Shown: positions 23,228 to 40,366 of the stretch, one piece after another | Numbering within the stretch: the first letter of the stretch is position 1 | Layout: each line of letters opens with the position of its first letter | Source of the DNA: Agromyces sp. Root81 | GTDB taxonomy: Bacteria > Actinomycetota > Actinomycetes > Actinomycetales > Microbacteriaceae | Length of the DNA stretch: 64,000 nt | NCBI RefSeq assembly: GCF_001429165.1 | Contig: NZ_LMIR01000001.1 | Location: 456,875-520,874, forward strand | Direction: 5' to 3' | The notes under the pieces: model-generated | What the model was told of the DNA's origin: nothing | The model's database searches: none | What the model saw: only the letters and a program-made list of their open reading frames with translations | Program-made: the position numbers and the translations under genes

Positions 23228-23797
23228 CTACTCAACTCTGGACTGAGGGCACTTCTCCTCCGCCTTCGCGAACTCCTTGGGGCCGAGCTCTGCAAGCTCA
23301 GGGCTCGAATAGGGAAGCCACGGGTCGCTGTCGTACGTGTCTTGGAACACCTGCCGTGACGGCGCCGGAGGAATGTCATATCCGAGCTCAGTCAGACACT
23401 TCGCGTTCTCCAAGGTCAACTCGTAGAGAGTGTCATAGTCCGCGTCGGTCAACTCTTCGAACTGGAAGACACCAAGACTCTGGCGGCACGCTTCCTGGAC
23501 TGCCGCCACCTCCGATTGCTGCTCGGGCGGGGCGTCGACGGACATCCCATCAGGAGGGAAGACGGTCACGTCGAATCCCGCCTCCCGAACGCACTCGGCA
23601 AGCTGGTCGATCTCGGATACCTCGGTGGTCGGTGCGTCTGGTTCGTTGGCTTCGGGCGCGGCTGTGCTGCATCCCGCCAGCAGTAGACAGAACAGGGCGG
23701 TTACCGCCGCGCCAGCGAGCGCAGTCCTGGCGCCCACTACGCCTGGCAAAGCTAGCAGTGCTACCCCAAATCCACGTAGCGGATGGGCTGAGGACAT
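23228..23797 (-). CDS. four-cysteine lipoprotein, family member L1
   Basis: The 189-residue product has a lipoprotein signal (FCLLLAGC) after an unusually long N-terminus. A GTG at 23737 would give a more normal signal (GARTALAGAAV). The mature part has the family pattern shared with four other genes here: Cys before G-F/W (CVREAGFDV), a middle Cys (EACRQSL), CLTELGYDIPPAPS, a YS...W block and a final CPQ. The function is unknown. It overlaps the 3' end of L2 by 37 bp from the upper start and is in the same transcript. Confidence 0.75.
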   Translation of the reverse strand: MSSAHPLRGFGVALLALPGVVGARTALAGAAVTALFCLLLAGCSTAAPEANEPDAPTTEVSEIDQLAECVREAGFDVTVFPPDGMSVDAPPEQQSEVAAVQEACRQSLGVFQFEELTDADYDTLYELTLENAKCLTELGYDIPPAPSRQVFQDTYDSDPWLPYSSPELAELGPKEFAKAEEKCPQSRVE

Positions 23798-24375
23798 ACA
23801 GCGTTGATCTCATCCCAAGGTGGTGCCTTGCCTTGTGCTTCTAGCACCCCGAAATCGTCAATGAACCCGGAGTAGGCGGACCAGCGGTCGGTCGTTGTGA
23901 ATCGCTCGATGAACGCCTCTTCTGACGGCGGCGTGTCAACCGGGAGGCCGAGACTACTGAGGCAGTCACGGGTTGCCAGCTCATATGAGTACAGCTTTGA
24001 GAGGGCACGTGGATCGACCTCCTCCGGACCACTCCAACCGGTACTCTCAGAGCACGTCCGATACACCTCAGCCACGATTGGACGTTGCTCTTCTGTCTCG
24101 CCAATCACCGTGAACGATTCCTTGCCTGCGACTTCGACCGGCCAGCCGTTCTCTTCCATGCACGCAAGAACGTCACGAAACACCTGTTCCCGTCGTTCCA
24201 ATCCCGCTTGAATCTCGTTCAACAGAGCGGGATCCATCTGAATCGTGGTCGGAACGGCACTCGAGATACTCGAGGAACCAGGACCGTTCGCCGGCGAGGA
24301 GCAAGCTGCCAAGGTAAGAGCGAGGCCCGCCAAGCCAGCCAGAGCGGTTCGGCGGAGAGCTAGAGCGGCGCGCAA
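23761..24375 (-). CDS. four-cysteine lipoprotein, family member L2
   Basis: The 204-residue lipoprotein starts with TTG (24375), overlapping the end of the upstream small exported gene by 16 bp. The signal peptide has an RR pair and lipobox LAAC (C25). The mature domain shows CMEENGWPVEV, TCSESTG, ELATRDCLSSLG, PPSEEAFIERF, WSAYSG and CPQP. These are the same landmarks as L3 and L6 in the second cluster. The conserved cysteines are even in number and exported, so disulfides are plausible. No known domain is recognised. Confidence 0.78.
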   Translation of the reverse strand: MRAALALRRTALAGLAGLALTLAACSSPANGPGSSSISSAVPTTIQMDPALLNEIQAGLERREQVFRDVLACMEENGWPVEVAGKESFTVIGETEEQRPIVAEVYRTCSESTGWSGPEEVDPRALSKLYSYELATRDCLSSLGLPVDTPPSEEAFIERFTTTDRWSAYSGFIDDFGVLEAQGKAPPWDEINAVCPQPIRYVDLG

Positions 24376-24676
24376 CTAGCACCCCCGCCGTTCGGCAATC
24401 CATTCGTGTACCAATACCACTGTCCGGCCCCGGTGTAGCCCCGGGTGATCTGGGACCCTTCTCCGATGTACTCTCGCGACCAGTGCGGCCCGTCACCGTC
24501 GTACTCGTGCCAGCCGGAACCGCTGGAACTCGTGGAGACGCGGATCTGGGTCGTCTGACTGCAATTGTGCCGCGTCCGAGCAGTGGAATAGTCTGCCCAT
24601 GCTGGCGCTGAAACTCCAACGCCCGCCAAGACTAGCCCCACTCCGGCTGCAGCGATTCCCGCCGGATTTTACGCAC
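24360..24676 (-). pseudogene. small exported protein with frameshift inside its signal peptide
   Basis: A GTG at 24676 with GGGAGAAA upstream begins VRKIRRES, the basic n-region of a signal peptide. The hydrophobic part and AWA cleavage site (VGLVLAGVGVSAPAWADYS) are in another frame, so one base is missing near 24655. The only in-frame start after the shift (GTG 24641) gives a signal with no positive charge and no Shine-Dalgarno. The mature part is about 77 residues, Gly/Ser/Trp/Tyr-rich, with two cysteines (HNCSQ and GASCAPL). It may be a real lesion or a sequence error. The family is not recognised. Confidence 0.6.
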
Positions 24677-24913
24677 GATTTCTCCCTTGAACGGTTCTGC
24701 GTGCCATGTTCCTGAGCCGACGAAGTGAACGAATCGCGACTCGGATCGAAGCTGGTCGAGCTATATCGTTCTGTGACGCTAGCAGTGATCCGCTTTCATG
24801 GGTCAGTCCTCATTAAAGGGGACCGGTGAATGGGCGCCGGCCGGGCAGCCAGGAGGGGTGCGCCCAGCGATGACCTCACAGCCGCGAAAGTCGCCCCAAT
24901 AGTAGTCCGCGAA

Positions 24914-25555
<642 letters not shown>

Positions 25556-25793
25556 CCCGCTGCTTCCGCGGTGGCGAGGTCCCGTGCGGCGAGGAGCCCG
25601 CACTGAACTTGCGCATGCCGAAGGCACGGATACTCGTCGACAACCCCAGCGATGGTCGTCTCGAAGGTGAGCTCGCCGACAAAATGGCGTGCCGGACTGT
25701 TGCAGCCTTCAAACTGATGCGGACGAGCTACTCGACCGTGGTTGCGTGCGGAACTTCGCTGCCGGCGACATCCGGAATCGCGGTGACGTTCGG

Positions 25794-25799
25794 TATCAT
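25794..25799 (+). promoter_or_regulatory. -10 hexamer for leaderless padR-like gene
   Basis: TATCAT ends exactly 6 nt before the ATG at 25806 and no Shine-Dalgarno is present. PadR proteins commonly bind their own promoter, and such a site would overlap this hexamer. Confidence 0.5.
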
Positions 25800-25805
25800 G
25801 GGCGG

Positions 25806-26132
25806 ATGGAGCCGATCCAACGCGTGACACCACCGACCCTCGATGTGCTTGTCGCGCTCGTGGAGTCGGCGTCACCGATGTGGGGCCTCCAGATCATCAA
25901 GGACTCCGGCCGGAACCCGGGTACCGTCTACCCGATCCTCGAGCGTCTCGAGGGACTGGGCTGGTTGACGTCGGACTGGCCTGCGGAGCCTGAGCGTAGC
26001 GGTCCGCGCCGCCACTATTACGAGCTGACGGCCGACGGCCGGAAGGCTGCGGTCAAGCTGCTGCTGGAACGCGCCGGGAGCCGGGTACAGAGCCCGGAAC
26101 GGGGCGCGGTGTTGCGAGGCGCGCGGGCATGA
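25806..26132 (+). CDS. PadR-family transcriptional regulator
   Basis: The 108-residue winged-helix protein has the PadR core: TPPTLDVLVALVESASPMWGLQII, then GRNPGTVYPILERLEGLGWLTSDW, and a wing with RRHYYELTADGRKA. It lacks the long C-terminal dimer helix, so it is a short (subfamily 2) PadR. Its stop overlaps the next gene's ATG (ATGA). It probably represses the unit it heads. Confidence 0.88.
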   Translation: MEPIQRVTPPTLDVLVALVESASPMWGLQIIKDSGRNPGTVYPILERLEGLGWLTSDWPAEPERSGPRRHYYELTADGRKAAVKLLLERAGSRVQSPERGAVLRGARA

Positions 26133-26518
26133 CTCCACGGGTCCAGCGGCTCCTCGCGCTTGTGGCGCTCCTCGTGCCACGAGAGCGGCGAGAGCGTTGG
26201 ATGGCGGAATGGTCGGCAGACCTCAGCTCCTGCGAGGAGCTCGGCATGTCCAAGCGTTCGCTGCTCACCTCGCTTGCCGGCGCCGCGTTCTCACTCCGTT
26301 GGACGGCGGCAACCGCGGAGGTCACCAAAATGTGGTCAGGCGTCGACCGGATGCGACTGCTCGTCGTCGGTGTGCTGTTGCCTGGGTTCGCCGCCATGCT
26401 CGTCATCGTTGGGATGAACGTCTACCAGCCTCCCGCCGGTGCGAATGAGCCGCCGAAGCCGACGAAGAACACCTACATCATCGACCCTGCGACCGGCGCG
26501 ATCATCGGGACGGAATAG
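26129..26518 (+). CDS. PadR-linked small membrane protein
   Basis: This 129-residue protein is translationally coupled to the PadR gene. The N-terminal half has RERWMAEWSADL, a motif seen in actinobacterial membrane proteins encoded after PadR regulators. One clear transmembrane helix (about 78-97, LLVVGVLLPGFAAMLVIVG) is followed by an outer tail ending IDPATGAIIGTE. The same DPATGA...TE string occurs in the exported protein encoded just downstream on the other strand. The function is unknown; an anti-sigma- or sensor-like role is only a guess. Confidence 0.7.
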   Translation: MTPRVQRLLALVALLVPRERRERWMAEWSADLSSCEELGMSKRSLLTSLAGAAFSLRWTAATAEVTKMWSGVDRMRLLVVGVLLPGFAAMLVIVGMNVYQPPAGANEPPKPTKNTYIIDPATGAIIGTE

Positions 26519-26524
26519 GTCGAA

Positions 26525-26567
26525 GGAAGCGAGGCCGCAGCAGTAGATGGGCCGCAGCCTCGCTTTC
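26525..26567. terminator. hairpin between convergent genes
   Basis: AAGCGAGGC (26527-26535) pairs with GCCTCGCTT (26557-26565). The pair can be extended by GU/GC at the base. It sits between the PadR-linked membrane gene and the convergent exported-protein gene. Confidence 0.5.
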
Positions 26568-26570
26568 GGG

Positions 26571-27026
26571 TTAGAAGATCTTGACCGACGTGACGGTCAC
26601 GGCCGAGCCTCCCCAGCCTGCGCTCGAGCCCGGGCCGAGGGTCGGGCCGGTCACGGTGCTTCCGCTGTAGATCCACCGCAGCTGCGCCGTCCATGAGCCG
26701 GTGTCGTAGGAGGTCCGGTTGCTCCATGAGCCTGTGGTCGTGCCGGACCCCTGGAACCCGACTGCCGTCCCGAAGTTGCTGCGCAGGCACACGGTGCTGC
26801 TGGTGCACGCCCCGGAAATGGTGGCAGGTGCGACCATCAGCTCCGTCACGGCGACGACGGCGCCGGTGGCGGGGTCGAGCGTCACGTGGACGTTCTCGAG
26901 GGGCGCGTCGGCTTCTGACTCGGCCGCGGCCACAGTCGTTTGGGGTGCTGCGGTAGCCGGCGCGGCGGCGCCGAGAATAGTGATTCCGGCGATGAGCGCC
27001 GCGCCGATCAGGGTCTTCTTCGACAT
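26571..27026 (-). CDS. small exported protein with DPATGA motif
   Basis: The 151-residue protein starts at ATG 27026 after AGAGGAAC and has a classical signal peptide (SKKTLIGAALIAGITILGAAAPATAAP). After an acidic linker comes VTLDPATGAVVAVTEL, matching the tail of the membrane protein next door. A Ser/Thr/Gly/Trp-rich beta domain with two cysteines (GACTSSTVCLRSNFG) follows. It resembles small secreted beta-rich proteins, but I cannot name a family. Its facing arrangement with the PadR pair suggests a shared process. Confidence 0.7.
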   Translation of the reverse strand: MSKKTLIGAALIAGITILGAAAPATAAPQTTVAAAESEADAPLENVHVTLDPATGAVVAVTELMVAPATISGACTSSTVCLRSNFGTAVGFQGSGTTTGSWSNRTSYDTGSWTAQLRWIYSGSTVTGPTLGPGSSAGWGGSAVTVTSVKIF

Positions 27027-27169
27027 CGTTGTTCCTCTCGTGCTCGAGGGAAATTCCTCGGGTCGAGAGGTAGTATCGCCCACGAATTCGATCTGTCCAA
27101 CATAGGTCGGCCTACGCTCGACCGAGTCGCCGCGGTGAGAGCTGCCTGACCTGCCGCGGGCATGCGAGA

Positions 27170-27236
27170 GGCGGGCGGCATGTACTGCCGCCCGCCTCGA
27201 TGGGCCGAGGGAGAAGGGTGGATGGGACCTTCTCCC
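27170..27236 (-). terminator. two hairpins after the DUF11 surface-protein gene
   Basis: GGCGGGCGGCA (27170-27180) pairs perfectly with TGCCGCCCGCC (27186-27196). A second stem, GGGAGAAGG (27209-27217) with CCTTCTCCC (27228-27236), lies just nearer the gene. Both follow the minus-strand stop at 27246. Confidence 0.65.
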
Positions 27237-27245
27237 CCGGGTCTG

Positions 27246-29465
27246 TTACGCCCGGCGGACTCGTCGGAGCGTCAGCAGGAGACCGACAGCGAGGATGCCG
27301 CCGCCGATCCCGGCCCAGACGCCGAGGCTCACGCCAGTGCTTGCCAGACCGGCCGCTGCGGGCTTCGCAGGTACCCCAGGCACGACAGGCGTTGGCTTGA
27401 CCGGGTACTTGACGACATCGCACGGGACATCCGACGTGGCCGGGTCAGCGCACTCAGGTGTCTGGTCGGTGGGCAGGCCCGTGAAGGCGACGTTGCGCAC
27501 CGACTGGTCGCCGCCGTCGTGGAGGGTCACGCTGTACCGGAGTTCGACGTACTCCCCTGCTGCCAGCGGCCCGTTCCAGATGAGCTTCGGCTCCGAGTAG
27601 GTCAGGCTGCCGTCGGTGACGGTCGCGTCACCGTTGTAGTCCGCGTCGTCCAGGACGCCGGTCATGTCGTCGACGAACGCGGCAGGGTCGCCGCCCGTGT
27701 ACGGGCCATCGCCGACGTTCGTGACCTTGACCGTGTAGTGCACGGTGTCGCCCACTCGCGCGCCGTCGGCCTGGTCGGAGGTTTTGTCGATGACGAGCAT
27801 CGGCGTCAGCTTGACCGGGAACTCGACCGCGTCGCACGGGGTCGGCGAATCGGTCGGGTCATCGCACTTGGGCGTCTTGTCGGTGGGTTCGCCGGCGAAG
27901 GCGACGTTGCGCACGAGCAGGTCACCTTCGGCGCCGAGTTCGACCGAGTACCGGATCGTGACGGACTCGCCGACCGGCAGCGCACCGGACCAGCGCAGCT
28001 TCGGGTCGGTGAAGGTGACTGCGCCGCGGTCGCTGGTCGCGTCGCTCTGGTACGCGGCGTCGTCGAGCACTCCGGTGAGGTCGTCCGTGACGATTGCCGG
28101 GTGCTCCGCCGTGTAGTCGCCGGTTCCGGAGTTCGTCGCAGTCACTTCGTAGGTGACGATGTCGCCGGGCTTGCCGGGCGCGACGGCGTCGGAGGTCTTC
28201 TGGAGCGTGAGCTTCGGTTCGCTGTAGAACTCGACGCTCGCGCAGCCGGGAAGGTCGAGGCCGACGACGCCGTCGATGTTCGCAGCGCAGTTCTCGAACG
28301 TCTTCGACGGTGCATCGGCGCCGCGCGGGGCGTCGGAGGTGACATCGACTGTGATCGTGCAGGAGACGTCGCCTGCGTCGAGCTTGCCGCCGGTGATCGT
28401 CACGGCGTTGCCGCCGGCAGTCGCGGTCGTCGTCGCGTCGCAGGTGCCGCCGACGTTCGCGTCGTCGGCGACGACGAGGCCATCCGGGAGCGTGTCGGTG
28501 AACTGCCAGCCGTCCTTCGCTGCGAGCTCGGCCGTGTTCGTCACGGTGAACGTCAGGGTCGAGACTCCGCCGACCGGGACACGCTTCGGGCTGAACGCCT
28601 TGTCCAGCTGCGGCGTCACATCCAGCAGACGGATGTCGTCGAATGCGCCGTCGTTGCCGGCCGTGGCACCGCTGCCGTTGCGCATCACGATGCCCACGGG
28701 CGAGCCGCTCGTCAGGAACGAGCCGTCGGATGCGAACTCACCCCCGTAGTAGACAGGGCTGTCGGGCTGCTGCGTCGGCGCGACGACCTCAGCACGCGGG
28801 TCGGTGCACGGGTTGATGCCGCCGCCCGAGATGGGCGTCTCGACACCGCCGGCGAGGACGGAGAACCGCATCTCGGGATGCGCAGCCCAGCATGACGTCG
28901 CCGCCGCGTTGACCGAGAACGTCACGAACCGGTTCGCGGCGGGCAGCGGGATCACTTCACCGTCGGTTGCGAACTGGACCTGGTCCGGTGCATACGACCG
29001 CCCTGAGGTGTAGGCGGCGACCGCGCTGTTCGCCTTCGGGTCCGACCCATTGACCTGGCCGAGCACGTCGGTGAGGTTGCGCAGGCCACCCTGTGAGGAC
29101 GCCGAATCACCACAGAGCCCGGTCAGGTCGTTCCCTCCCGACAGGACGAACCCGTTGCAAGATGCCACCGGGTCCTCCCACTCCCCGTCAGCGGTGTACT
29201 GGTACCCGTCCGGCGCGGACACATAGTCCACCAGGTCCGTCGAGGGCCCGCTGTCGGGCGCGTTCTCGAAGTCCTCGTGGAACAGGGCCACCGGCGCAGC
29301 GGGCTGCCCGCGCGTGCCAGGGCCGGGCGGCAGCGCGTGTGCCGCGGTTCCGGCGCCGTCGAGCGCGACGAACGTCGGCGCCACGAGCCCGGCACCGAGA
29401 ACGAGAGCCGAGAGTACGGCGCTCCCCACCTTGCCGGGCCGTCTGCTGATACTTCTCGATCTCAT
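27246..29465 (-). CDS. DUF11-repeat cell-surface protein with LASTG sorting signal
   Basis: The 739-residue exported protein has a long signal peptide (basic start RSRSISRRPGK, hydrophobic core, cleavage near AHA-L). A jelly-roll-like N-terminal domain (to about 270) carries a cysteine pair. Next come a DUF11-type block (LDKAFSPKRVPVGGVSTLTFTVTN) and two tandem repeats of about 130 residues. Each repeat starts (L/I)xKTSD and includes VTDDLTGVLDDA or VDDMTGVLDDA. The C-terminus is LASTG (707-711), a hydrophobic helix and RRVRRA, a sortase-type anchor. A GAAGGAGAG Shine-Dalgarno precedes the ATG. No sortase gene is in the window. Confidence 0.88.
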   Translation of the reverse strand: MRSRSISRRPGKVGSAVLSALVLGAGLVAPTFVALDGAGTAAHALPPGPGTRGQPAAPVALFHEDFENAPDSGPSTDLVDYVSAPDGYQYTADGEWEDPVASCNGFVLSGGNDLTGLCGDSASSQGGLRNLTDVLGQVNGSDPKANSAVAAYTSGRSYAPDQVQFATDGEVIPLPAANRFVTFSVNAAATSCWAAHPEMRFSVLAGGVETPISGGGINPCTDPRAEVVAPTQQPDSPVYYGGEFASDGSFLTSGSPVGIVMRNGSGATAGNDGAFDDIRLLDVTPQLDKAFSPKRVPVGGVSTLTFTVTNTAELAAKDGWQFTDTLPDGLVVADDANVGGTCDATTTATAGGNAVTITGGKLDAGDVSCTITVDVTSDAPRGADAPSKTFENCAANIDGVVGLDLPGCASVEFYSEPKLTLQKTSDAVAPGKPGDIVTYEVTATNSGTGDYTAEHPAIVTDDLTGVLDDAAYQSDATSDRGAVTFTDPKLRWSGALPVGESVTIRYSVELGAEGDLLVRNVAFAGEPTDKTPKCDDPTDSPTPCDAVEFPVKLTPMLVIDKTSDQADGARVGDTVHYTVKVTNVGDGPYTGGDPAAFVDDMTGVLDDADYNGDATVTDGSLTYSEPKLIWNGPLAAGEYVELRYSVTLHDGGDQSVRNVAFTGLPTDQTPECADPATSDVPCDVVKYPVKPTPVVPGVPAKPAAAGLASTGVSLGVWAGIGGGILAVGLLLTLRRVRRA

Positions 29466-29626
29466 CTCTCTCCTTCACGCGCACCGCCATGGCAGCGGTG
29501 GCCTCATGGGAGAGACGGTTCAGTCGAACGTTCGTGATGGGGCGCAACGAAACATCACCCACCTGATACCCCACTCCGCGACGCGCTATCGGATCGCTGC
29601 GGATGGGATCAGGTGGCACAGCCCGG

Positions 29627-30232
29627 TCAGCCGCCGAAGGTGCCATGCCCTCCGGAGACGGCTTTCGCGCTGGACCCGAACCCGCCTTTGCCGGACGAGC
29701 CGAACCCGCCGGTCAGCGGCGCTCGTGTGCCGACCTTCGAGCCTGCGGGCGCCTTCTCCACGACGTCGCTGTGCGCTGCGGATCCTGGTGCCGCGAACCC
29801 GCCGCCGGCGACAGGCGCCCATGACGAGACGCGCGGGCTGTCCCATCGCGACGACGCGAACAGCAGCGGGCCGAGCCACACACCGGAGGAGTAGTGGCCG
29901 TTGTAGGTGTCGGAGGATTCGCAGAGGCTCTCGGGCGAGTCATCGACTGGTTCTCCTTCCTGGCGGAGCTTCTCGAGCTGTTCGGCGACGTCGGCGATAC
30001 AGTCATCACGCGAGGCGTAGACGGGGCGTTCGGTCCCGTCCGGGAGGATGTACTGCTCGCCGTCGGCACCGGTGACCACTTCGCCGTCCGATGGGAAAGT
30101 GCTGCAGCCGGCGAAGAGCAGTACGGCGCTTGCGACTCCGATGGCGGCGACCGTCTTCGTGGCGGACGGGCGGGTCGCACCGGACAGCGTCACGGTGCCG
30201 CTTCGGCGGCGGGTCGGGGCTTCGGCGCTCAC
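29627..30232 (-). CDS. YgiB-like (DUF1190) lipoprotein
   Basis: The 201-residue product has an N-terminal lipoprotein signal with lipobox LFAGC and the DUF1190 landmark YASRDDCIADV. A middle WLGPLLFASSRWDSP segment and a Gly/Ser tail with two GGFGSS repeats follow. The order matches E. coli YgiB, which is always paired with YgiC as here. The GTG start overlaps the stop of the ygiC-like gene (GTGA), with AAGGAGG just before, so the pair is coupled. The function of the pair is not established. Confidence 0.75.
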   Translation of the reverse strand: MSAEAPTRRRSGTVTLSGATRPSATKTVAAIGVASAVLLFAGCSTFPSDGEVVTGADGEQYILPDGTERPVYASRDDCIADVAEQLEKLRQEGEPVDDSPESLCESSDTYNGHYSSGVWLGPLLFASSRWDSPRVSSWAPVAGGGFAAPGSAAHSDVVEKAPAGSKVGTRAPLTGGFGSSGKGGFGSSAKAVSGGHGTFGG

Positions 30233-31434: not shown

Positions 31435-31506
31435 GCGGGTGTCCTCCGGGTTGTAGGTGTGAAGGGCGGGACTGGTGAGGAGCGCCCGCTCACCTGCTCT
31501 GCGGTG

Positions 31507-31605
31507 TCAGGCGTCGGTCGTCACTCGGGCGGAGTGACCACCTCGGAAGCGCGCGGCCTGCAACGCGAGAGCGGCGGACTTGCTTCGGTACGAGACGTCG
31601 GTCAT
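31507..31605 (-). CDS. possible 32-residue peptide upstream of the ygiC-like gene
   Basis: An ATG at 31605, with AGGA 8 nt upstream, opens a 32-codon frame with actinobacterial codon use. The peptide is basic (six Arg, one Lys) and Ala-rich with no membrane segment. It could be a leader peptide or small protein. Only context and codon use support it. Confidence 0.3.
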   Translation of the reverse strand: MTDVSYRSKSAALALQAARFRGGHSARVTTDA

Positions 31606-31673
31606 GAGTAAGGTCCTGCCGGGCGCCGGGCGCCGGGCGCGGGCGACGTGCTGTCATCCTCGTCGATGCACGG

Positions 31674-32954: not shown

Positions 32955-32971
32955 CGCTCTCCTCGTGCGGG

Positions 32972-33040
32972 TTCATAACCCACTGCACTCATTTTATGGG
33001 AAATCGCCGTTTTTCATAAGAGGCGGTGACTATTTTATGG
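32972..33040 (-). promoter_or_regulatory. tandem operator and promoter of the Fic gene
   Basis: TTCATAA-N12-ATTTTATGG occurs twice, at 32972-32999 and 33013-33040, with the same 12-nt gap and a 41-bp period. Each unit is an imperfect inverted repeat (CATAA facing TTATG). On the minus strand TTATGA and TAAAAT lie 17 bp apart within this region, a good -35/-10 pair 20-60 nt before the Fic start. A protein bound here would cover the promoter. Confidence 0.65.
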
Positions 33041-33129
33041 ATTCCCGCCGATATCCATCAGTGTCACGATTCGGGCCCCGCCGGCTACTTCGCCCGTACC
33101 GGCGACACAGGTTCCGTGGGTCGTCGCCT

Positions 33130-33888
33130 CTACCGCGTCGGATCGACGCCGTCGAAGACGTCGGGGTAGTTGCCGAGCCATGCCCACCGGTCCAGCGGCC
33201 AGCTCACGAGGAACGCGGCGCCGACGACGTCGTCGATGGGGACGAAGCCGTGCGTCGGGGTGTCGGCGTGGAAACGCGAGTCTTGGGAGTCCTCGCGGTT
33301 GTCGCCCATCACCCAGAGCGAATCCTCTGGCACGACGACATCGAAGTCAACGCTTGACGCTTCGGTCACGTCCGGCGAGTGGATGGCATACGGCTCCCGG
33401 AGCGGCACCCCGTTGACACTCATCTGGCCGAGCCCGTTGCAGCAGACCACCCGGTCGCCGGGCAGCCCGATGACGCGCTTGACGAGGTGCTCGTCGGAGT
33501 CCGGTGCGGACACGCCCACGGCCGCGGTGAGCCAGTCGAACGCGGCGGCCATGGGCGGCTGGACGGGGGCTTCCCCGCGGTACGGGAGCCACTCCCCCGG
33601 GTCCTTGAACACGACGACGTCGCCGCGTTCGATGGGACTGACCTCGGGCTTGAGCTGATTCACGATGATGCGGTCGTCGACCTCGAGTGTGTGGGACATC
33701 GACCCGGACGGGATGTAGAACGACCGGATGACGAACGTCTTGATCAGGAAGGAGACCAGCACCGCGACGAGGAAGATGACGAGGATGTCGCGGAGGAACC
33801 TGAGGGCCCCACCCGTGCGTGGCTCGTCGCGAGGTCGCTCTCGCTTCGGGGCCTCCTCGGCCGGTGCGATCTGGGCGTCGGTGATCAT
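33130..33888 (-). CDS. lepB: signal peptidase I
   Basis: The 252-residue membrane peptidase has a cytoplasmic tail rich in charged residues and a transmembrane helix (about 31-54). The Ser box is IPSGSMSHTL (catalytic S63) and the Lys box is HLVKRVIGLPGD (catalytic K137), followed by the GDNREDSQDSR motif of type I peptidases. I chose ATG 33888 because a GAAGGG sits before it; the frame extends 11 residues upstream without support. A second-copy SPase in an exported-protein island may serve local substrates. Upstream is an AT-rich TTCTATATAGGTCGA element. Confidence 0.92.
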   Translation of the reverse strand: MITDAQIAPAEEAPKRERPRDEPRTGGALRFLRDILVIFLVAVLVSFLIKTFVIRSFYIPSGSMSHTLEVDDRIIVNQLKPEVSPIERGDVVVFKDPGEWLPYRGEAPVQPPMAAAFDWLTAAVGVSAPDSDEHLVKRVIGLPGDRVVCCNGLGQMSVNGVPLREPYAIHSPDVTEASSVDFDVVVPEDSLWVMGDNREDSQDSRFHADTPTHGFVPIDDVVGAAFLVSWPLDRWAWLGNYPDVFDGVDPTR

Positions 33889-34015
33889 GGTTCGTGCCCT
33901 TCTTGCCAGGGGTCGTCCCAAGCGTTCAGCTACGGTACCAGCTGTCTCGACCTATATAGAATAGCGCGGACCATCGATCGACGATGACCTGTCGAGGAAG
34001 CCGCTGTAGCCGACC

Positions 34016-34510
34016 TCAGCCGGCCGCCGGGTCCGAGGGATCCTGTATCGCGTCGAGGAATTCCGCGAACGTCGGTGCCGCGCCTGCGGTGTCGCGACCT
34101 TCCCGCATTGCTGACGCGCGGCTCTCCGTCCATTCCTTCGCGTGATCGATGCCTTCCGGCGCGCCGCCCTTGCTCATGAGTTGGAAGTCCCGGGCGAGTT
34201 CGGCTGCGACCTCTGCTCGTACGTTTCGGAGCCAGCGGTCGAACGCGATGCGGCGCTCTTCCGTGTCGGCGGCCGGCGCCTGCCAGGCTTCGATCTGGCC
34301 AGCATCCCAGACCGCCAGGAGTCCTGCCTCCGCGCCCTCATACGGGTCGTTCGTGAGGTAGGTGGTCTCGCCGCTGACTTTCCGGTTGAGGGCGTGCCTG
34401 AGCTTGTCGTCGTCGTCGGGCCAGAGCTTGCGGAGGTGCGGAAGCAGTTCGGCTGTCGTCGAGGTGAGCAGCCATGATGGGAGCTTCCTGGGCTCATCGG
34501 CGGTCGTCAT
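34016..34510 (-). CDS. hypothetical protein
   Basis: The 164-residue soluble protein is rich in Trp, Asp and Glu (PSWLLTSTTAELLPHLRKLWPDDDD near the start). It has no signal peptide, membrane segment or recognised motif. The ATG at 34510 has GAGGAG 7 nt upstream. It overlaps by 17 bp a small upstream frame with CxxC. I do not recognise a family. Composition suggests an all-helical cytoplasmic protein. Confidence 0.6.
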   Translation of the reverse strand: MTTADEPRKLPSWLLTSTTAELLPHLRKLWPDDDDKLRHALNRKVSGETTYLTNDPYEGAEAGLLAVWDAGQIEAWQAPAADTEERRIAFDRWLRNVRAEVAAELARDFQLMSKGGAPEGIDHAKEWTESRASAMREGRDTAGAAPTFAEFLDAIQDPSDPAAG

Positions 34511-34622
34511 CGTGACTCTCCTCAGCGGTTGGGTGGGCCTGCACAACGATGTCCGGGACGCGACCGCACAGCATGCAGATCCTGATTGCACCGAACATCT
34601 CGGAGCCTGCGTTCGTTGCCAC
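34494..34622 (-). CDS. possible small CxxC protein or 5'-truncated gene remnant
   Basis: From just after the permease stop (about 34731) to the stop at 34494, one frame reads like a real protein: RELEQGTAAVRSAIAEG, IQWNACDDTEAGYRAVATN, ICMLCGRVPDIVVQAH. Yet there is no ATG/GTG/TTG before the GTG at 34622, which would leave 42 residues with one CxxC. It is either a remnant that lost its start or a short metal-binding peptide. It overlaps the next gene's ATG by 17 bp. Confidence 0.35.
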   Translation of the reverse strand: MATNAGSEMFGAIRICMLCGRVPDIVVQAHPTAEESHDDDRR

Positions 34623-34719
34623 GGCCCGGTACCCGGCTTCGGTATCATCGCAGGCATTCCACTGGATCGTGAGTCCTTCCGCGATTGCGCTGCGGACGGC
34701 TGCCGTCCCTTGCTCGAGT

Positions 34720-35907
34720 TCACGGCACCCGGAGCTCTCTGATCGGCTCCCGCCGGGATGCGGCGACCGCGGGCAGGAGTGCGGAGACGGTCGCGACGAG
34801 CACGGCGAGGATGCAGACTCCGGCGACGTAGCTCCATCCCGGGAGCGGGTCACCGGTGACGGCGAGCACCATGAGTGCGGTCGCGGAGCCGATGGCGGCG
34901 CCGACGGTCGCGACGGCTGCGGTCTGGATGGTGATGAGGGCGACGATGAGTCGTTGCGACGCCCCGAGTGCACGGCGGCGGCCGAAGTCCTTCCGCCGCA
35001 GCATCACCATGCCGTAGAGGAGCACCGCGACGAGGAACGCGGTGACGGCGAGGATGCCGAGGGTGAGGGTGCGGCCGAAGCTGCCGAGCTGGCCCTCGAT
35101 GATCGCGCGGAGCGAGGCGAGGTCTTCGCTGGTCTGCACGCTGACCTTCGTCGGGTCGTCGACGCCGAGCACGGAGCCGACAGCTTCGGCGACGGGTGCG
35201 ACGAGGTCGGGACGTTCGGCGATGACGAGTAGCGCGCCGACGGGCGCGGGCGGGGCGTCCCCCAGTTGCGGGGCCAGGAGCAGTGGTTCGAGGAACGCGA
35301 GGTGCTCGGGGACGGCGATGCGGCCGCCGACGGCGTAGCCGCCGGTGCCGTCGGTGAGCTCGACCGATCCGATGGGTTCGTCGAGCCCGAGTTGGGCGAG
35401 TGCGGTGTCGGACGCGTACGCGACATCCCCGTCGCCTGGGAGCGTCTCCGGCAGGCCGAGCTGTGTCCAGTCGTCGGCCCAGACCTGTCGGAGCGGGACC
35501 CGGGTGCCGTCGTCGAATGCGGCGTTGCGGACGTCTTGGGCGAGGCTGAATGCGCCGGCCCATTCGATGCCGTCGAGGTGTCTGATCCGGTCGAGCACGG
35601 TCGTGTCGAGGCCTGCGGCGGGTTCGGCGCGGACGATGATGGACCGGGTGCCGGCGGAGTCGATGGACCCGATGACGTCTTGTTCGGCGCCGACCGCGCG
35701 GCCGGAGGTCAGCAGCACCGCGGCGCACATCCCGGCGATCACGACAAGGGTGAGCACGGATGCGACCGGTTGGGTGAGCGCGGAGACCAGCGCCTCCCGC
35801 ACGACTGCCCACCACGACGGCGTGCGTCGCCCTGTGCTTCGCACGCGGCCGCCGCTTGCGGTCGCGCCCGATGGGTTCGCGGCGAGTTCTCGCTCGGTCG
35901 TGGTCAC
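34720..35907 (-). CDS. FtsX/MacB-type ABC transporter permease
   Basis: The 395-residue protein has a transmembrane helix after a cytoplasmic start (about 46-66). A large extracytoplasmic domain of about 200 residues (MacB-like periplasmic core) and three C-terminal helices (about 280-385) follow. The ending LRVP after RREPIREL is usual for FtsX permeases. It is the third gene of an adaptor-ATPase-permease unit, with a 4-bp overlap with the ATPase. It should move a peptide or lipid-like substrate at the outer membrane leaflet or outside; the substrate is unknown. Confidence 0.88.
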   Translation of the reverse strand: MTTTERELAANPSGATASGGRVRSTGRRTPSWWAVVREALVSALTQPVASVLTLVVIAGMCAAVLLTSGRAVGAEQDVIGSIDSAGTRSIIVRAEPAAGLDTTVLDRIRHLDGIEWAGAFSLAQDVRNAAFDDGTRVPLRQVWADDWTQLGLPETLPGDGDVAYASDTALAQLGLDEPIGSVELTDGTGGYAVGGRIAVPEHLAFLEPLLLAPQLGDAPPAPVGALLVIAERPDLVAPVAEAVGSVLGVDDPTKVSVQTSEDLASLRAIIEGQLGSFGRTLTLGILAVTAFLVAVLLYGMVMLRRKDFGRRRALGASQRLIVALITIQTAAVATVGAAIGSATALMVLAVTGDPLPGWSYVAGVCILAVLVATVSALLPAVAASRREPIRELRVP

Positions 35908-36545
35908 AGCATCAGCTCCCGGTCGCAGCGGGCGACCAGCGCCGGGTCGTGCGTGACGACGATGACGGCCGCGCCGCGCCTGGCCTGTTCGTGCAGTGCG
36001 GTCACGACGACATCGGATGACGCGGGGTCGAGGTTACCGGTCGGCTCATCGGCGAGGAGGATCCGAGGGTCGCCCAGCAGGGCCCGGCACAGAGCGATGC
36101 GTTGCGCCTGGCCGCCGGAGACCTGCCCGGGCTTGGCGCCGGCGCGGAGTGCGACCCCGAACTGGTCCATCAGCTCGTGCGCCCGTCCGGTCGCGGCGCG
36201 GCGGTCGTCGCCGCGGTACAGCACCGTCTCGAGGATGTTGTCGAGCACGGTGCGGGACGCGTCCAGCGCAGCATCCTGGAACACGAAGCCGAACGTCGAA
36301 CTCCGAAGTGCCGCGCGGTCCCGGTCCGGCAGGCCCTGCGCAGCCTCACCGTCGACGAGCACTCGCCCGCCGACTGGTTTCAGCATCATGCCGAGCAGGT
36401 ACAGCAGGGTCGACTTGCCTCGGCCCGACGGACCGGTGACGGCGACGACTTCACCGGCATGGAAGTCGGCCGACCAGCCGTCGAGGAGCAGGGAACGCGG
36501 ATCGTACCCGAAGGAGAGCCCGTCAGCGGCGAGCAGCGCGGTCAC
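35904..36545 (-). CDS. ABC transporter ATP-binding protein (LolD/MacB type)
   Basis: The 213-residue ATPase has Walker A GPSGRGKST, Q-loop FVFQDAAL, signature VSGGQAQR, Walker B ILLADEPTGNLD and H-loop VVTHD. The start is GTG 36545, overlapping the stop of the adaptor gene (GTGA). The open frame to 36908 is a shadow of the adaptor gene. Length and TGNLDP wording are typical of MacB/LolD-like ATPases, which use the ATPase cycle for mechanotransmission, not classical import. Confidence 0.93.
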   Translation of the reverse strand: MTALLAADGLSFGYDPRSLLLDGWSADFHAGEVVAVTGPSGRGKSTLLYLLGMMLKPVGGRVLVDGEAAQGLPDRDRAALRSSTFGFVFQDAALDASRTVLDNILETVLYRGDDRRAATGRAHELMDQFGVALRAGAKPGQVSGGQAQRIALCRALLGDPRILLADEPTGNLDPASSDVVVTALHEQARRGAAVIVVTHDPALVARCDRELML

Positions 36546-37666
36546 GACTTCCCGCCGGCAGCCTCTTCGCCGGACGCGGGAACCCGCACTCGCATGCCGG
36601 CCGGTGCGCCGTCGATGACCGACATGCCCTTCGCCGCCGCGACGACGGCAACCTCGTGCCGCTCGCCCTCGTCGTCGACGACCGAGATGGTTCCGTCGGT
36701 CGCTGACAGGAGCGCCGCCGACGGGGCGACGACACCCGTCACCGTCGGCTGGGTCACAATCTTCGACAGCAGCCGGGACGAGCCTTCGGCAGGGAGGGTG
36801 CCGCACCCGGCGCCGCAGATCGTCGCGCCGCCCACGCCCTGCAGCACGACATCGACCTGATCGCCGGACTCCTCCGAAGGCTTCTGGCTCGCCACCTCCG
36901 CCGCCCACACGGTTCCGTCCGGCGCCTGCACCTCGACCGCCGTGCCGACAGGCATCGACCCCGCCTGCGACACCGTCACCGGGATCGTGAACACCGGCTC
37001 AGCAGACAGCGCCGACACCGCCGCTTCGCCGCCGCTCAGCGACGCGCCCCTGAACACGATCTCCGGGTCGAGGGTGACCCGGGTCGGCAACGTCGGCACG
37101 AAGACCACGTCACCCGGTTGCACGACCCCGTCGTCCCCAATCCCGAGCGAGTCCTGCCAGTCCTTCACGGCAGCCTCCGTCCGGCTGCCGAACTCGCCGT
37201 CGACCGCACCGGAGTAAAACCCGAGCTCGGTCAGCAGCTGCTGCAGCTGCTGCACGTCCGAGCCCTTCGCCTCCCGACTCAGCGGCCGAAACACCGGCGT
37301 CGCACCGGCCGCCACGACGACCGGCCGGAGGTTCACCGAGTACAGCACCGAACCCGCCCGCACCTCGTCCCCAGGCGCGACAGTCACTGACGTCACGGTT
37401 CCCGATGCCTGATTCGTAGCGGCAAGCGCCGGCTGCCACTCCGCGACCGTGTTCAGCTGCATCGACGAGCCGACCTCACCGTCCACGAGCTCCACGTACG
37501 TATACGGCGTCTCCGACAGCACGTCACGCGGCGGCGCGAACACCGCGGTGACCGCCCACCCTGCGACAGCACCGACCGCGAGCAGGCTGACGACCAACAC
37601 CGGGATGCGCCACCAGCGCCGCCGAGGCTTCTCGGCGTTCATGTTCATCGGGCCATTGTCGGTCAC
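36542..37666 (-). CDS. exporter adaptor with peptidoglycan-binding domain
   Basis: The 374-residue protein has an N-terminal membrane anchor (about 19-42), a HlyD/biotinyl-lipoyl-like hairpin (about 80-115, SGTVTSVTVAPGDEVRAGSVL) and a PG_binding_1 domain inserted after it (about 133-170, GSDVQQLQQLLTELGFYSGAVDGEFG). A beta-barrel part with CGAGCG follows. Such adaptors replace the periplasmic fusion protein in Gram-positive MacB-like exporters and tie it to the cell wall. It is first in a three-gene operon. An AT-rich inverted repeat (37766-37789) lies upstream. Confidence 0.85.
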   Translation of the reverse strand: MTDNGPMNMNAEKPRRRWWRIPVLVVSLLAVGAVAGWAVTAVFAPPRDVLSETPYTYVELVDGEVGSSMQLNTVAEWQPALAATNQASGTVTSVTVAPGDEVRAGSVLYSVNLRPVVVAAGATPVFRPLSREAKGSDVQQLQQLLTELGFYSGAVDGEFGSRTEAAVKDWQDSLGIGDDGVVQPGDVVFVPTLPTRVTLDPEIVFRGASLSGGEAAVSALSAEPVFTIPVTVSQAGSMPVGTAVEVQAPDGTVWAAEVASQKPSEESGDQVDVVLQGVGGATICGAGCGTLPAEGSSRLLSKIVTQPTVTGVVAPSAALLSATDGTISVVDDEGERHEVAVVAAAKGMSVIDGAPAGMRVRVPASGEEAAGGKS

Positions 37667-37765
37667 GACACTCCTTCATGCGACTCATCGGTGAGATGGC
37701 CCTGCGTTCTTGTCTGTTTCGGCGCTGTGGTTCCCACCGGCAGCCGGTTCGTCAGCAGCTTGCGA

Positions 37766-37789
37766 CCCAATATAAGTCGAATATGGGTG
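37766..37789 (-). promoter_or_regulatory. AT-rich inverted repeat upstream of the exporter operon
   Basis: ACCCAATAT and ATATGGGT face each other around AAGTCGA. The core (minus strand ATTCGACTTA) resembles the TATCGACTTA upstream of lipoprotein L3 and the TATCGATTTA upstream of L6. It could be a common activator site or extended -10 region; the regulator is unknown. Confidence 0.4.
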
Positions 37790-37853
37790 GTCGTCTACCG
37801 GATCGATGCCGCCTCCGAGGCGAGGCCTGACGTGCCGGAAGAATGCGCCCCTG

Positions 37854-38405
37854 TTACCAGGTACCGAAGAACCAGGCTGGTTGCGGGCATGCCTCGTTGA
37901 CCTCGCGCCACTTCGAGTCAGGCATGCCCATGACGCCCGAACTTGCGGCGTACGCGGACCAGCGCCCTGCGCCCGGGAAGGCGTCGATGAACTCCTGCTC
38001 CGACGGCGGCTCGTCGATGTCGTCGTAGCCGAGCTCGATGAGGCAGTCACGCGTCTCGAGCTCCTGGGCGTAGACCTTCTTCATGTCGGCGGTCGACATG
38101 TTCGTGATGGCGTCGTCGTACGGCGCCCAGCACTCGTCGGCATCTGCACGGTAGAGCTCGTACTGGTCGTCCGGTATGTCGCCGGCGTCCGTGCCGACGC
38201 CCCCGTCCCACGAGATCGTGACGGGCCAACCCTTCTCGATCAGACACCTGTACGCCTCGTTCGACGCCGGTGACAGGCTGAGCCCTTCATCGACCGGAGA
38301 GGTGGTCGGTTCCGGCTTCTCACTCTGGCCGGCGCAGCCGGTCAGCACGAGCCCGGCGCTGAGCGCCAGCATGGTCGGCATTCCCCTTCGACGTGCTGTG
38401 AGCAT
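37854..38405 (-). CDS. four-cysteine lipoprotein, family member L3
   Basis: The 183-residue lipoprotein has lipobox LTGC. Its mature part shows CLIEKGWPVTISWDGG, DECWAPYDDA, ELETRDCLIELGYDD, PPSEQEFIDAFPGAGRWSAY and CPQPAW. It is nearly a copy of L6 (39634-40179), about three quarters identical by eye including the C-terminus, so one arose by recent duplication. The 60-90 bp upstream are duplicated as well. It has its own promoter region and probably a separate transcript from L4-L6. The function is unknown. Confidence 0.8.
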   Translation of the reverse strand: MLTARRRGMPTMLALSAGLVLTGCAGQSEKPEPTTSPVDEGLSLSPASNEAYRCLIEKGWPVTISWDGGVGTDAGDIPDDQYELYRADADECWAPYDDAITNMSTADMKKVYAQELETRDCLIELGYDDIDEPPSEQEFIDAFPGAGRWSAYAASSGVMGMPDSKWREVNEACPQPAWFFGTW

Positions 38406-38508
38406 CGTCCCTCATTCCAGTCGGAGCAGTCGTTCGCTGCGGTCGATGGTAAGTCGATATAGACGGATTAGCTAGCATCTCGCGTCGGTATATGGAGTCC
38501 TCGCGTGC

Positions 38509-38565
38509 GGCGAGACATCCGGTTTTCGTCTCTCGCCACCTCACCGGCACCGACTACTGCCGGTG
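38509..38565 (-). terminator. hairpins at the end of the L4 gene
   Basis: CACCGGCA (38542-38549) and TGCCGGTG (38558-38565) form a stem that contains the L4 stop codon. GGCGAGA (38509-38515) and TCTCGCC (38531-38537) form a second just downstream in the minus-strand sense. They separate the L6-L5-L4 transcript from L3. Confidence 0.5.
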
Positions 38566-39228
38566 CAGTTCCGCCGGAACCATCGGGCACAACTCGGGAA
38601 TCTCCGACGCTTCCTCCATCGTCAGTGCATCGTCGTCACCGTACGGAATCCAGGGCCGACCGTTCTCCCAGTCCTCGATGAAGACTTGTTCGCTCGGAAG
38701 CGCCGACGCCGACGACCCTGCCTGTTCGATGCAGGGGATGACCGTGTGCTTTTGGTACGCGTAGATGTAGCGAAGCTCGGCCTCGGTGTACGGGCGAATG
38801 AACCGGGGGTCGAGTGGGTACATCACGTCGCAGGCGTATGCAGCGAGCGTCTGAGCTTCTGCCTGCTCATCCGGCGGTACCGGGGAGTAGGTGATACCCC
38901 CTTCGTCATTCGGATGGGCAGGGAATCCCTGCTCGGTGACGCAGTCAGCCTTGACGTGAGCGATCTCGCTCTGCGTGACGAACCGCACCCGGTCAGGGGT
39001 CGGCAGCACGGCACCGGGATACAGCGACAGAATTCTCCCCCCCTTCTCCTCGAGGATGCTCGCGGCCAGCGCTTCTGACTGCGACTCGCTCAGCGGAGCG
39101 ACGGATGGCACGGGCGGCAACTCGTCCACTGAGCACGCCGTGAGCGGGATGGCGCTGAGCGCGACAACGCCGACCAGCGCCATGACGACGAAGGGCCCCC
39201 GGTGCGGCTCTCGCGAGGATCCAGTCAC
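38554..39228 (-). CDS. divergent four-cysteine lipoprotein, family member L4
   Basis: The 224-residue lipoprotein has lipobox LTAC after a clear hydrophobic core. I chose GTG 39228 as start because it overlaps the stop of the broken L5 gene (GTGA). It keeps the family spacing: a Cys before G-F (CVTEQGFPAH), a second Cys (YACDVMY), a third in IPCIEQAG, LPSEQVFIEDW, W-I-PYG and a final CP. It has an extra 40-residue N-terminal segment (LEEKGGRILSLYPGA) that the others lack. It is the most diverged intact member. Confidence 0.75.
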   Translation of the reverse strand: MTGSSREPHRGPFVVMALVGVVALSAIPLTACSVDELPPVPSVAPLSESQSEALAASILEEKGGRILSLYPGAVLPTPDRVRFVTQSEIAHVKADCVTEQGFPAHPNDEGGITYSPVPPDEQAEAQTLAAYACDVMYPLDPRFIRPYTEAELRYIYAYQKHTVIPCIEQAGSSASALPSEQVFIEDWENGRPWIPYGDDDALTMEEASEIPELCPMVPAELHRQ

Positions 39229-39592
39229 CCCCAGAGGCCCTTTGGCAACTGGGGGCACGTCTCATCGGCCCCAGCGAAGGACGACATGTCGACCTCGTTG
39301 ATCGGGTTGTACCCGCCCGTTCGTGGGTACTCGTCGAGGAAGACCTGCTCCGAGGTGGGTTCGGAGATCTCGTGGCCGAGGTCGATCAGGCATTGCCGCA
39401 TCTCACCCGCCCGGTACCGGTAGAGGTACACATTGCCGCGAGTTCGGTTTCCACGATCTGCTCGGATTCCGATGCGGAAAGGGCGTCTGGGATCGGCTTC
39501 GCGTCGGCGGGCTGGCCTGCGTAGCTGGCGACGAGGAACGTGACGGTGCCCGCAACGACCCAACCTAGATTCCGACGCGTGCGGTTCAACAT
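39225..39592 (-). pseudogene. frameshifted family member L5
   Basis: An ATG at 39592 with GAGGAGG starts a signal-peptide-like N-terminus (MLNRTRRNLGWVVAGTVTFLVAS). The frame then reads SASESEQIVETELAA. A one-base loss near 39431-39440 shifts the rest: VYLYRYRAGEMRQCLIDLG, SEQVFLDEYP and CPQLPKG lie in another frame, ending at 39225. The N-terminal half of the family domain (first two Cys) is missing, and there is no lipobox. L5 sits between L6 and L4 in one transcript. Confidence 0.75.
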
Positions 39593-39633
39593 GTGCCTCC
39601 TCGAATTGACATGCAGACGGAGCATGGGCGCCG

Positions 39634-40179
39634 CTACCAGGTTCCGAACGACCAGGCCGGCTGCGGGCAGGCCTCGTTGACCTCACGCCACTTCGAGTCC
39701 GGCATACCCATGACGCCGGCGCTGGCGCTGTACGCGGACCACCGGCCGGCGCCCGGGAACGAGTCGATGAACTCCTGCTCCGACGGCGGCTCGTCGAGGT
39801 CGTCGAAGCCGAGCTCGATGAGGCAGTCACGCGTCTCGAGCTCCTGGAGGTAGACCGTCTCGATGTCCGAGACCGGCATGTTCAGGCTGGCCTCGTTGAT
39901 CGGCGCCCAGCACTCGTCGGAGTCCGCTTTGTACAACTCCATCTGTTCGGCCGGGATGCTGTCACTGTCTGTGCCGATTCCGCCGTCCCACGAAATGGTG
40001 ACGTCCCAGCCCCTCACGGTCAAGCACTCGTAGACCTGGTTCGACGCCGGCGACAGGCTGAGCCCTTCATCGACCGGCGACGTCGTCGGTTCCGGGGCCG
40101 GGCTGCTGCAGCCCGTCAATACGAGGCCGGCCCCCACGGCCAGCGTGGTGAGCACTCCCCATTGACGTGCTCGGTGCAT
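39634..40179 (-). CDS. four-cysteine lipoprotein, family member L6
   Basis: The 181-residue lipoprotein is the close sister of L3, with lipobox LTGC followed by PEPTTSPVDEGLSLSPASN in both. Its landmarks are CLTVRGWDVTISWDGG, DECWAPINEA, ELETRDCLIELGFDD, PPSEQEFIDSFPGAGRW and CPQPAW. GGAATGAGG precedes the ATG. It heads the L6-L5-L4 transcript. Sequence up to about 75 bp upstream is shared with L3, including CTATATCGA and CTAGCTAAT. Confidence 0.8.
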   Translation of the reverse strand: MHRARQWGVLTTLAVGAGLVLTGCSSPAPEPTTSPVDEGLSLSPASNQVYECLTVRGWDVTISWDGGIGTDSDSIPAEQMELYKADSDECWAPINEASLNMPVSDIETVYLQELETRDCLIELGFDDLDEPPSEQEFIDSFPGAGRWSAYSASAGVMGMPDSKWREVNEACPQPAWSFGTW

Positions 40180-40366
40180 CGTTCCTCATTCCAGTCGGAG
40201 CAGTTGTCCACTGCAGTCGATGGTAAATCGATATAGCCAGATTAGCTAGTCCTCGCAGAATCGTGCACGGCATCCGAGAACGCTCGCGTGCCGAAGAGCG
40301 GCCCAGCGAATAGCCTGAGGTCGTGGACTGCTGCGATCCACGACCGCCGAGCCGAGGCGCCCCGCG

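Follow-up and report, generated by a model that had tools for sequence, protein, structure and literature searches.

The window analysed here, a stretch of 64,000 nucleotides from Agromyces sp. Root81 (contig NZ_LMIR01000001.1), contains six members of a gene family encoding lipoproteins with four conserved cysteines in the mature part (LPs; L1 to L6 in Table 1). We found that genes of this family recur in actinobacteria together with genes for small secreted proteins with two cysteines (PEPs) and with an exporter operon encoding a membrane-anchored adaptor (MFP), an ATP-binding cassette (ABC) ATPase and an FtsX-type permease. The lipoprotein family, the recurrence of the secreted proteins, their linkage and the order of their genes are established observations, and the two families, neither of which has a family model, are parts of one recurrent module. 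With even confidence we propose that the LP is the membrane-anchored immunity partner of a bacteriocin-like PEP, together with a MacAB-like adaptor/ABC/FtsX pump.

A preliminary description of the window had reported a common plan for L1 to L4, L6 and the broken copy L5, arranged in two clusters. An iterated profile of the mature parts, built from the window and 40 fetched loci, unites all of them and collects 65 LPs, 62 of which cover at least 70% of the model, so that the likeness goes beyond chance. Both clusters lie on the minus strand and comprise L2 and L1 (23228-24375) and L6, L5, L4 and L3 (37854-40179). L5 is indeed frame-broken, and only its part with the third and fourth mature cysteines remains in one frame. 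In the alignment of the five intact window members, 16 columns are invariant, including the cysteine of the lipobox and, of the four mature cysteines, all but the second, which is out of register. The conservation of all four that had been claimed is borne out by the wider core alignment, where they are invariant in 55 of 55 rows, and by an alignment of 62 members, where they are present in 62, 62, 62 and 60 sequences, making two putative disulfides plausible. The latter alignment also has a G after the first mature cysteine in 62/62 members; frequent elements besides are Y, CL, G, PS, W and a terminal CP. The motif quoted earlier, with PPSEQ-x-FI and a terminal CPQP, is kept less strictly than described: L1 has APSRQVF and ends in CPQS, L2 has PPSEEAFI, and L4 has LPSEQVFI and ends in CPMV. 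L3 and L6 are the product of a DNA duplication of about 636 bp (80% identical) that includes the upstream region. L1 and L2 were called by neither of the two gene callers used on the loci. A profile search of the genome gave eight LP places at E <= 0.001, namely the six of the window, a near-copy of L2 and one distant member. The near-copy is located on another contig (82% DNA identity over 600 bp); neither a PEP nor an exporter was found in the 19.5 kb read around it, and this LP stands alone.

The statement that no known domain is recognisable was upheld by all searches. Nothing near the cut-off was obtained with Pfam and NCBIfam for the five window members (best E 0.021), and in scans with the 55 aligned LPs every family listed matched one member only (best E 0.0028); a known domain or DUF is ruled out by these scans. 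Comparison with PDB sequences gave no match at E <= 10. AlphaFold2, run on the five window sequences alone, returned a mostly helical model with a mean predicted local distance difference test score (pLDDT) of 78.2 and a predicted template modelling score of 0.65; between residues 21 and 150, ten-residue blocks reach a pLDDT of 80-94, with one block at 68. When this model was compared with 350,542 PDB chains using Foldseek, nothing better than E 2.6 was found. A phage origin was considered and rejected after viral contigs, scanned with one alignment of eight lipoproteins that does not include the distant members, yielded no relative. The LPs are therefore an apparently undescribed lipoprotein family. 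The claim of an undescribed four-cysteine family has thus survived the tests run, but it was incomplete, having missed the partner genes for the PEP and the exporter.

The LP core profile detected 45 of 199 genomes of Microbacteriaceae at E <= 1e-7, 37 of 297 genomes in a sample of the order at E <= 1e-4 (some through partial matches) and 5 of 296 in a sample of the phylum; the window's own genome counts among the positives in all three. Loci were fetched in two sets, the first comprising 40 LP-centred loci and the second 20 loci, of which 18 come from outside Microbacteriaceae. Loci with LP and exporter come from 17 genera of Microbacteriaceae and 8 further actinobacterial families. The complete set of LP, PEP and exporter is also present on the Clavibacter plasmid pCL-A6099, which is typed as mobilizable. 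The distributed gene table of this plasmid is incomplete and lists none of lipoprotein, PEP and adaptor as genes; this may partly explain why the module has been overlooked.

The preliminary description had suggested a search for constant neighbours of the lipoproteins, and this search showed that the small secreted two-cysteine protein and the adaptor/ABC/FtsX exporter often adjoin them. Adaptor and ATPase genes were found near an LP in 33 of 40 loci of the first set, in nearly all of them together with an FtsX-type permease, and in 18 of 20 loci of the second. The survey of the 199 family genomes gave 23 MFP places with E < 1e-50 (22 genes, one MFP being split), every one of them within 5 kb of an LP. 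Of the 45 MFP places with weaker scores, a single one is this close, and it is a fragment of this type. The profiles for MFP and PEP had both been built from LP-linked genes, so that the linkage is demonstrated for this subfamily of adaptors and not for adaptors in general. Seen from the lipoprotein side of the same survey, 30 of 84 LP places are located within 6 kb of a strong MFP (23 of 29 among the best-scoring). PEP places are closer still: 13 of 16, among them each of the 12 with E < 1e-13, have an LP within 700 bp. In the fetched loci 44 of 47 PEPs are within 565 nt of an LP core, with the PEP and its nearest LP encoded on the same strand in 31 of the 47 cases. LP, PEP and exporter are all present in 36 of the 60 loci; a PEP is found in 37, one of which has no exporter. 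In the window, about 10 kb separate the PEP/L2/L1 cassette from the exporter/L3/L4/L5/L6 array.

The PEPs were recognised as small open reading frames (ORFs) near LPs that encode a Sec signal and a mature part of about 75 residues with two cysteines. A profile built from 19 such ORFs and iterated found 47 PEPs. When each locus was left out in turn, the full profile including the signal peptide recovered 39 of the 47 at E <= 1e-5 (weakest 0.006) and the PEP of the window at E 8.6e-12; in the genome search the latter scored E 1.1e-18 with a profile that included it. We also applied a rule that uses no profile and asks for a Sec signal, a ribosome-binding site and exactly two cysteines, one at either end of the mature part. 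This rule, written after the PEPs had been seen and run on the 60 loci with the window left out, selected 24 ORFs in the 199 kb that lie up to 1.2 kb from LPs and no ORF in the 728 kb more than 3 kb away from them; all 24 are also in the PEP profile list. No Pfam or NCBIfam family fits the PEPs. The PEP profile gave 37 matches to PDB sequences at E <= 10, the best being a 'Hydrolase' (5hdf/5hdp, E 0.0007) with an alignment that begins in the signal peptide, and we took these as chance or signal-peptide matches. A single-sequence model is all-beta with low confidence (pLDDT 58), and a fold search with it gave no match below E 1.2. The PEPs are thus apparently undescribed secreted proteins. In the window, the PEP stop overlaps the start of L2 and the L2 stop overlaps the start of L1, so that PEP, L2 and L1 look like one operon.

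The genes of the exporter operon (34720-37666, beside L3 to L6) overlap by 4 nt. Four hydrophobic segments were detected in the permease (residues 39-74, 276-305, 319-340 and 354-385), the first two being about 200 residues apart. A separate ATPase and an FtsX permease with the order transmembrane segment 1, large outside domain, transmembrane segments 2-4 correspond to the definition of a type VII ABC transporter. The MFP has an N-terminal membrane segment, and its matches to adaptor profiles are below the cut-off (HlyD_D23, RND_mfp and NHLM HlyD weak at E 0.05-0.1; Biotin_lipoyl_2 at E 0.0097). Judged from sequence, the pump is of the MacAB-like type, with the MFP as its candidate adaptor. 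A CxxxC motif is kept in 19 of 19 aligned adaptors, and all three extracytoplasmic parts, LP, PEP and MFP, therefore bear conserved cysteines.

Table 1. Features of the lipoprotein and exporter loci in the window (positions refer to the 64,000-nucleotide stretch).
Feature	Position	Strand	Basis and remarks
L1, four-cysteine lipoprotein	23228-23797	minus	ORF with lipobox, iterated profile; start overlaps L2 stop
L2, four-cysteine lipoprotein	23761-24375	minus	ORF with lipobox, iterated profile; start overlaps PEP stop
PEP, small secreted two-cysteine protein	24360-24641	minus	GTG start; mature part predicted at about 24363-24593; gene may be broken close to its start
FtsX-type permease	34720-35907	minus	Pfam FtsX 36 bits (cut-off 25.5); hydropathy
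ABC ATPase	35904-36545	minus	Pfam ABC_tran E 1.8e-28
MFP, membrane-anchored adaptor with PG_binding_1 domain	36542-37666	minus	Pfam PG_binding_1 E 1.1e-14
L3, four-cysteine lipoprotein	37854-38405	minus	ORF with lipobox, iterated profile
L4, four-cysteine lipoprotein, long N-terminal type	38554-39189	minus	ORF with lipobox, iterated profile
L5, frame-broken copy	about 39225-39592	minus	partial profile match 107-173 of 174, E 9e-15
L6, four-cysteine lipoprotein	39634-40179	minus	ORF with lipobox, iterated profile; 75% identical to L3
Duplicated unit, L3 and its upstream region	37840-38475	minus	80% identical to 39621-40249
Duplicated unit, L6 and its upstream region	39621-40249	minus	80% identical to 37840-38475

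The general scheme of a peptide, an immunity lipoprotein and an ABC pump is known. For Gram-positive MacB-type pumps with adaptors (YknXYZ, Spr0693-0695 and AS-48EFGH), the excerpts used here report or propose protection against toxic peptides or their export, and they state that MacB does not move its substrate through the inner membrane (PMC5985334; PMC5768738). The operon described here resembles YknXYZ, Spr0693-0694-0695 and AS-48EFGH in that adaptor, ATPase and FtsX/MacB-type permease are separate proteins encoded together. It differs in that its adaptor has a PG_binding_1 domain and the conserved CxxxC, and in that a two-cysteine secreted protein and a four-cysteine lipoprotein accompany it; the same excerpts mention neither of the two for these systems. 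The lipoproteins NisI, SpaI and MlbQ give immunity to lantibiotics; according to the excerpt used, NisI and MlbQ have no sequence or structural similarity and each is specific for its own peptide (PMC4828448). These LanI proteins, which act with LanFEG, share with our loci the position of a lipoprotein beside a secreted (there antibacterial) peptide and an ABC transporter, an arrangement complete in the loci with all three parts. No likeness of the LP to a solved LanI protein was found, sequence and fold matches in the PDB being absent at the thresholds given above; its model is mostly helical with four cysteines. No lanthipeptide enzyme was seen among the recurring neighbours listed; a 'thiopeptide-type bacteriocin biosynthesis protein' is encoded about 6 kb from the set on the Clavibacter plasmid. 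Members of the lactococcin 972 family, which is reported to be spread in actinobacteria, are small, unmodified, beta-rich bacteriocins encoded with an ABC ATPase and membrane proteins (excerpts of PMC9964109 and PMC5719810). Our loci likewise combine a small, putatively unmodified secreted protein with an ABC ATPase and membrane proteins, but the permease is of the FtsX type, and a lipoprotein and an adaptor are present. Membership in this family was rejected: PF09683 matched none of 10 PEPs and none of 32 aligned PEPs at E <= 0.1, and the ATPase scored 158.3 bits against TIGR03608, below the cut-off of 254.85. Since the pump is MacAB-like, the LP would have a LanI-like role without LanI likeness and the PEP would act in the manner of lactococcin 972 without belonging to that family, we regard the module as a known scheme with an LP family and secreted proteins that are apparently undescribed. 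No description of it was found in the open-access full-text literature, judged from titles and the starts of abstracts among the matches listed, which is weak evidence of absence.

According to our proposal, the PEP would be a bacteriocin-like antibacterial protein that is exported by Sec and probably closed by one disulfide between its two cysteines. Each LP would act as the cognate immunity protein, binding the PEP on the outer face of the membrane. The MFP-ABC-FtsX pump, being MacAB-like, would not transport the PEP through the membrane; it would dislodge the PEP from the membrane/wall interface and drive it outward across the peptidoglycan bound by the adaptor. Orphan LPs and LP arrays may represent stored immunity. 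Falling slightly short of even confidence, a more far-reaching claim is that these loci define an unrecognised actinobacterial class of bacteriocins, consisting of Sec-exported, disulfide-closed proteins of about 75 residues with their own new-fold four-cysteine immunity lipoproteins and a shared, wall-tethered MacAB-like pump, orphan LPs and arrays being a record of past encounters. If the PEPs are antibacterial, the module would yield unmodified antibacterials, encoded directly by genes and already accompanied by immunity genes. Profile-based mining would miss it because neither LP nor PEP matches Pfam or NCBIfam. The module also offers a concrete test of the way in which MacAB-like pumps work in bacteria without an outer membrane.

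Besides the linkage, several observations speak for this proposal. Three loci (L068, L074 and L075) contain two or three PEP-LP pairs but one exporter. In comparisons between loci with a PEP match of E < 1e-6 and more than one LP in the target, the best LP match was the paired LP in 12 of 17 cases (expected 6.7), many of the comparisons being reciprocal and hence not independent. When one genus cluster is set aside, the closest pair from two different species has PEPs that are 78% and LPs that are 62% identical. Conservation decreases from the pump towards the peptide: mean column identity is 70% for the ABC ATPase, 53% for the MFP, 35% for the LP and 28% for the PEP (calculated from differing sets of rows). 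Orphan LPs without a PEP, such as the near-copy of L2, and LP arrays also occur.

Several results weigh against our proposal. Killing, immunity, binding of PEP by LP and the direction of transport are matters that we infer, and no known bacteriocin family was matched by the PEPs. Taken over all 42 pairs, PEP and LP diverge together only weakly (Mantel r 0.175, p about 0.001; 0.117 with the MFP controlled for), and not more strongly than PEP and MFP do (0.177), so that the pairing argument rests on the close pairs. With a profile restricted to the mature part, for which one genus was excluded en bloc, E <= 1e-5 was reached by 8, E <= 1e-3 by 14 and E <= 0.1 by 22 of the 47 PEPs, the PEP of the window scoring E 0.0042. 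The family likeness is thus carried only partly by the mature part and to a large extent by the signal peptide. Judged by mature sequence, about half of the PEPs are recognisably one family, while the rest share plan and place, and the PEPs may accordingly be several families with one plan. The signal region of the window PEP is short and has no positive charge, and a start codon lies just upstream in another frame; this gene may be broken near its start. With the PEP possibly dead and L5 dead, the window locus may now act mainly as protection.

Further points concern loci in which the module is incomplete. Among the 60 fetched loci, 15 have LP and exporter without a PEP above the threshold, although one of these PEP-less loci (L209) contains a PEP candidate at E 0.05, and 8 have an LP with neither exporter nor PEP. 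In 20 LP loci picked as not known to be near an exporter (L226-L245), no exporter or PEP was found (0/20). The LP tree, which is poorly resolved, contains a large clade without exporter or PEP (31 of 32 rows unlinked, support 90), and most LPs of L226-L245 belong to one clade. Labels cluster on this tree, with 12 changes compared to 34 in shuffles, a value biased by the way in which those 20 loci were chosen. The four-cysteine family is therefore broader than the LP/PEP/exporter module, and some exporter-less LPs recur beside genes that appear unrelated. Some of the LPs in L226-L245 form tandem arrays (six in L243), and in 7 of these 20 loci a gene that by eye resembles an LLM-type flavin oxidoreductase is located nearby.

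Other explanations have to be considered for the same data. The LP could be a maturation or hand-over factor that holds the PEP after Sec export, aids formation of its disulfide and passes it to the adaptor, with the PEP being a bacteriocin or any other secreted protein. The conserved cysteines of the three extracytoplasmic parts (four in the LP, two in the PEP, CxxxC in the MFP) would suit such a relay, and in seven loci (L090, L101, L106, L207, L214, L222 and L223) PEP, LP and MFP are encoded in one direction with the LP between the other two. However, LPs also occur alone or in arrays without a PEP, single exporters have several different LPs beside them, and PEP and nearest LP are on opposite strands in 16 of 47 pairs; we consider a hand-over function unlikely. 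Somewhat less likely still is that the loci are resistance islands in which LPs sequester foreign peptides of neighbours, the pump removes them and the PEP is an add-on. Taken alone, the L3-L6/exporter half of the window is best described in this way, with its four LP genes and no adjacent PEP, and the loci with LP and exporter but no PEP point in the same direction. Loss of the analogous Spr0693-0695 pump lowers the minimal inhibitory concentration of LL-37 from 32 to 8 ug/mL, as stated in an excerpt of PMC5768738. But a PEP is present in 37 of 60 loci, in most cases no further than 565 nt from an LP, which is too often for an occasional add-on.

We regard as improbable that the PEP is an extracellular signal or a structural protein of the wall or surface, with the LP as its receptor or anchor partner and the pump placing the PEP in the wall. 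Secretion of the PEP, its all-beta low-confidence model and the lipobox of the LP are consistent with this, but among the neighbour clusters listed no regulator, TetR-like by its sequence in the most frequent case, is found at more than 4 loci, and the divergence of the PEPs and the presence of several PEP-LP cassettes per exporter suit an effector better. That the linkage merely reflects shared hitch-hiking of accessory genes in one island is very improbable: although the window region is accessory and holds gene remnants, LPs occur with the exporter in the 17 genera and 8 further families named above, and every strong MFP place in the 199 genomes is linked to an LP. Compared with these alternatives, the immunity reading of the LP, with a bacteriocin-like PEP and a MacAB-like pump, is the one that we favour.

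Additional genes were noted in the vicinity of the two cassettes. A signal peptidase I gene (33130-33888, minus strand) is located near the exporter of the window, and lepB on the Clavibacter plasmid is located near the lipoprotein and exporter genes there; the two match each other at E 1e-82. Within the first set, a signal peptidase near LP and exporter was seen at that Clavibacter locus only (1 of 40). The divergent genes 26129-26518 (plus strand) and 26571-27083 (minus strand) both encode products with an I/L-DPATGA-I/V stretch; the product of the latter, which by eye resembles a further small secreted protein preceded by a pro-region, gave no match in Pfam or NCBIfam at E <= 1. Upstream of the PEP gene (24914-25700, minus strand) are remnants of a ribonucleotide reductase small subunit gene with broken frames, judged by eye beyond 25045-25227; the 60-residue ORF at 25045-25227 matches solved R2 subunits (E 5e-23) and Pfam PF00268.

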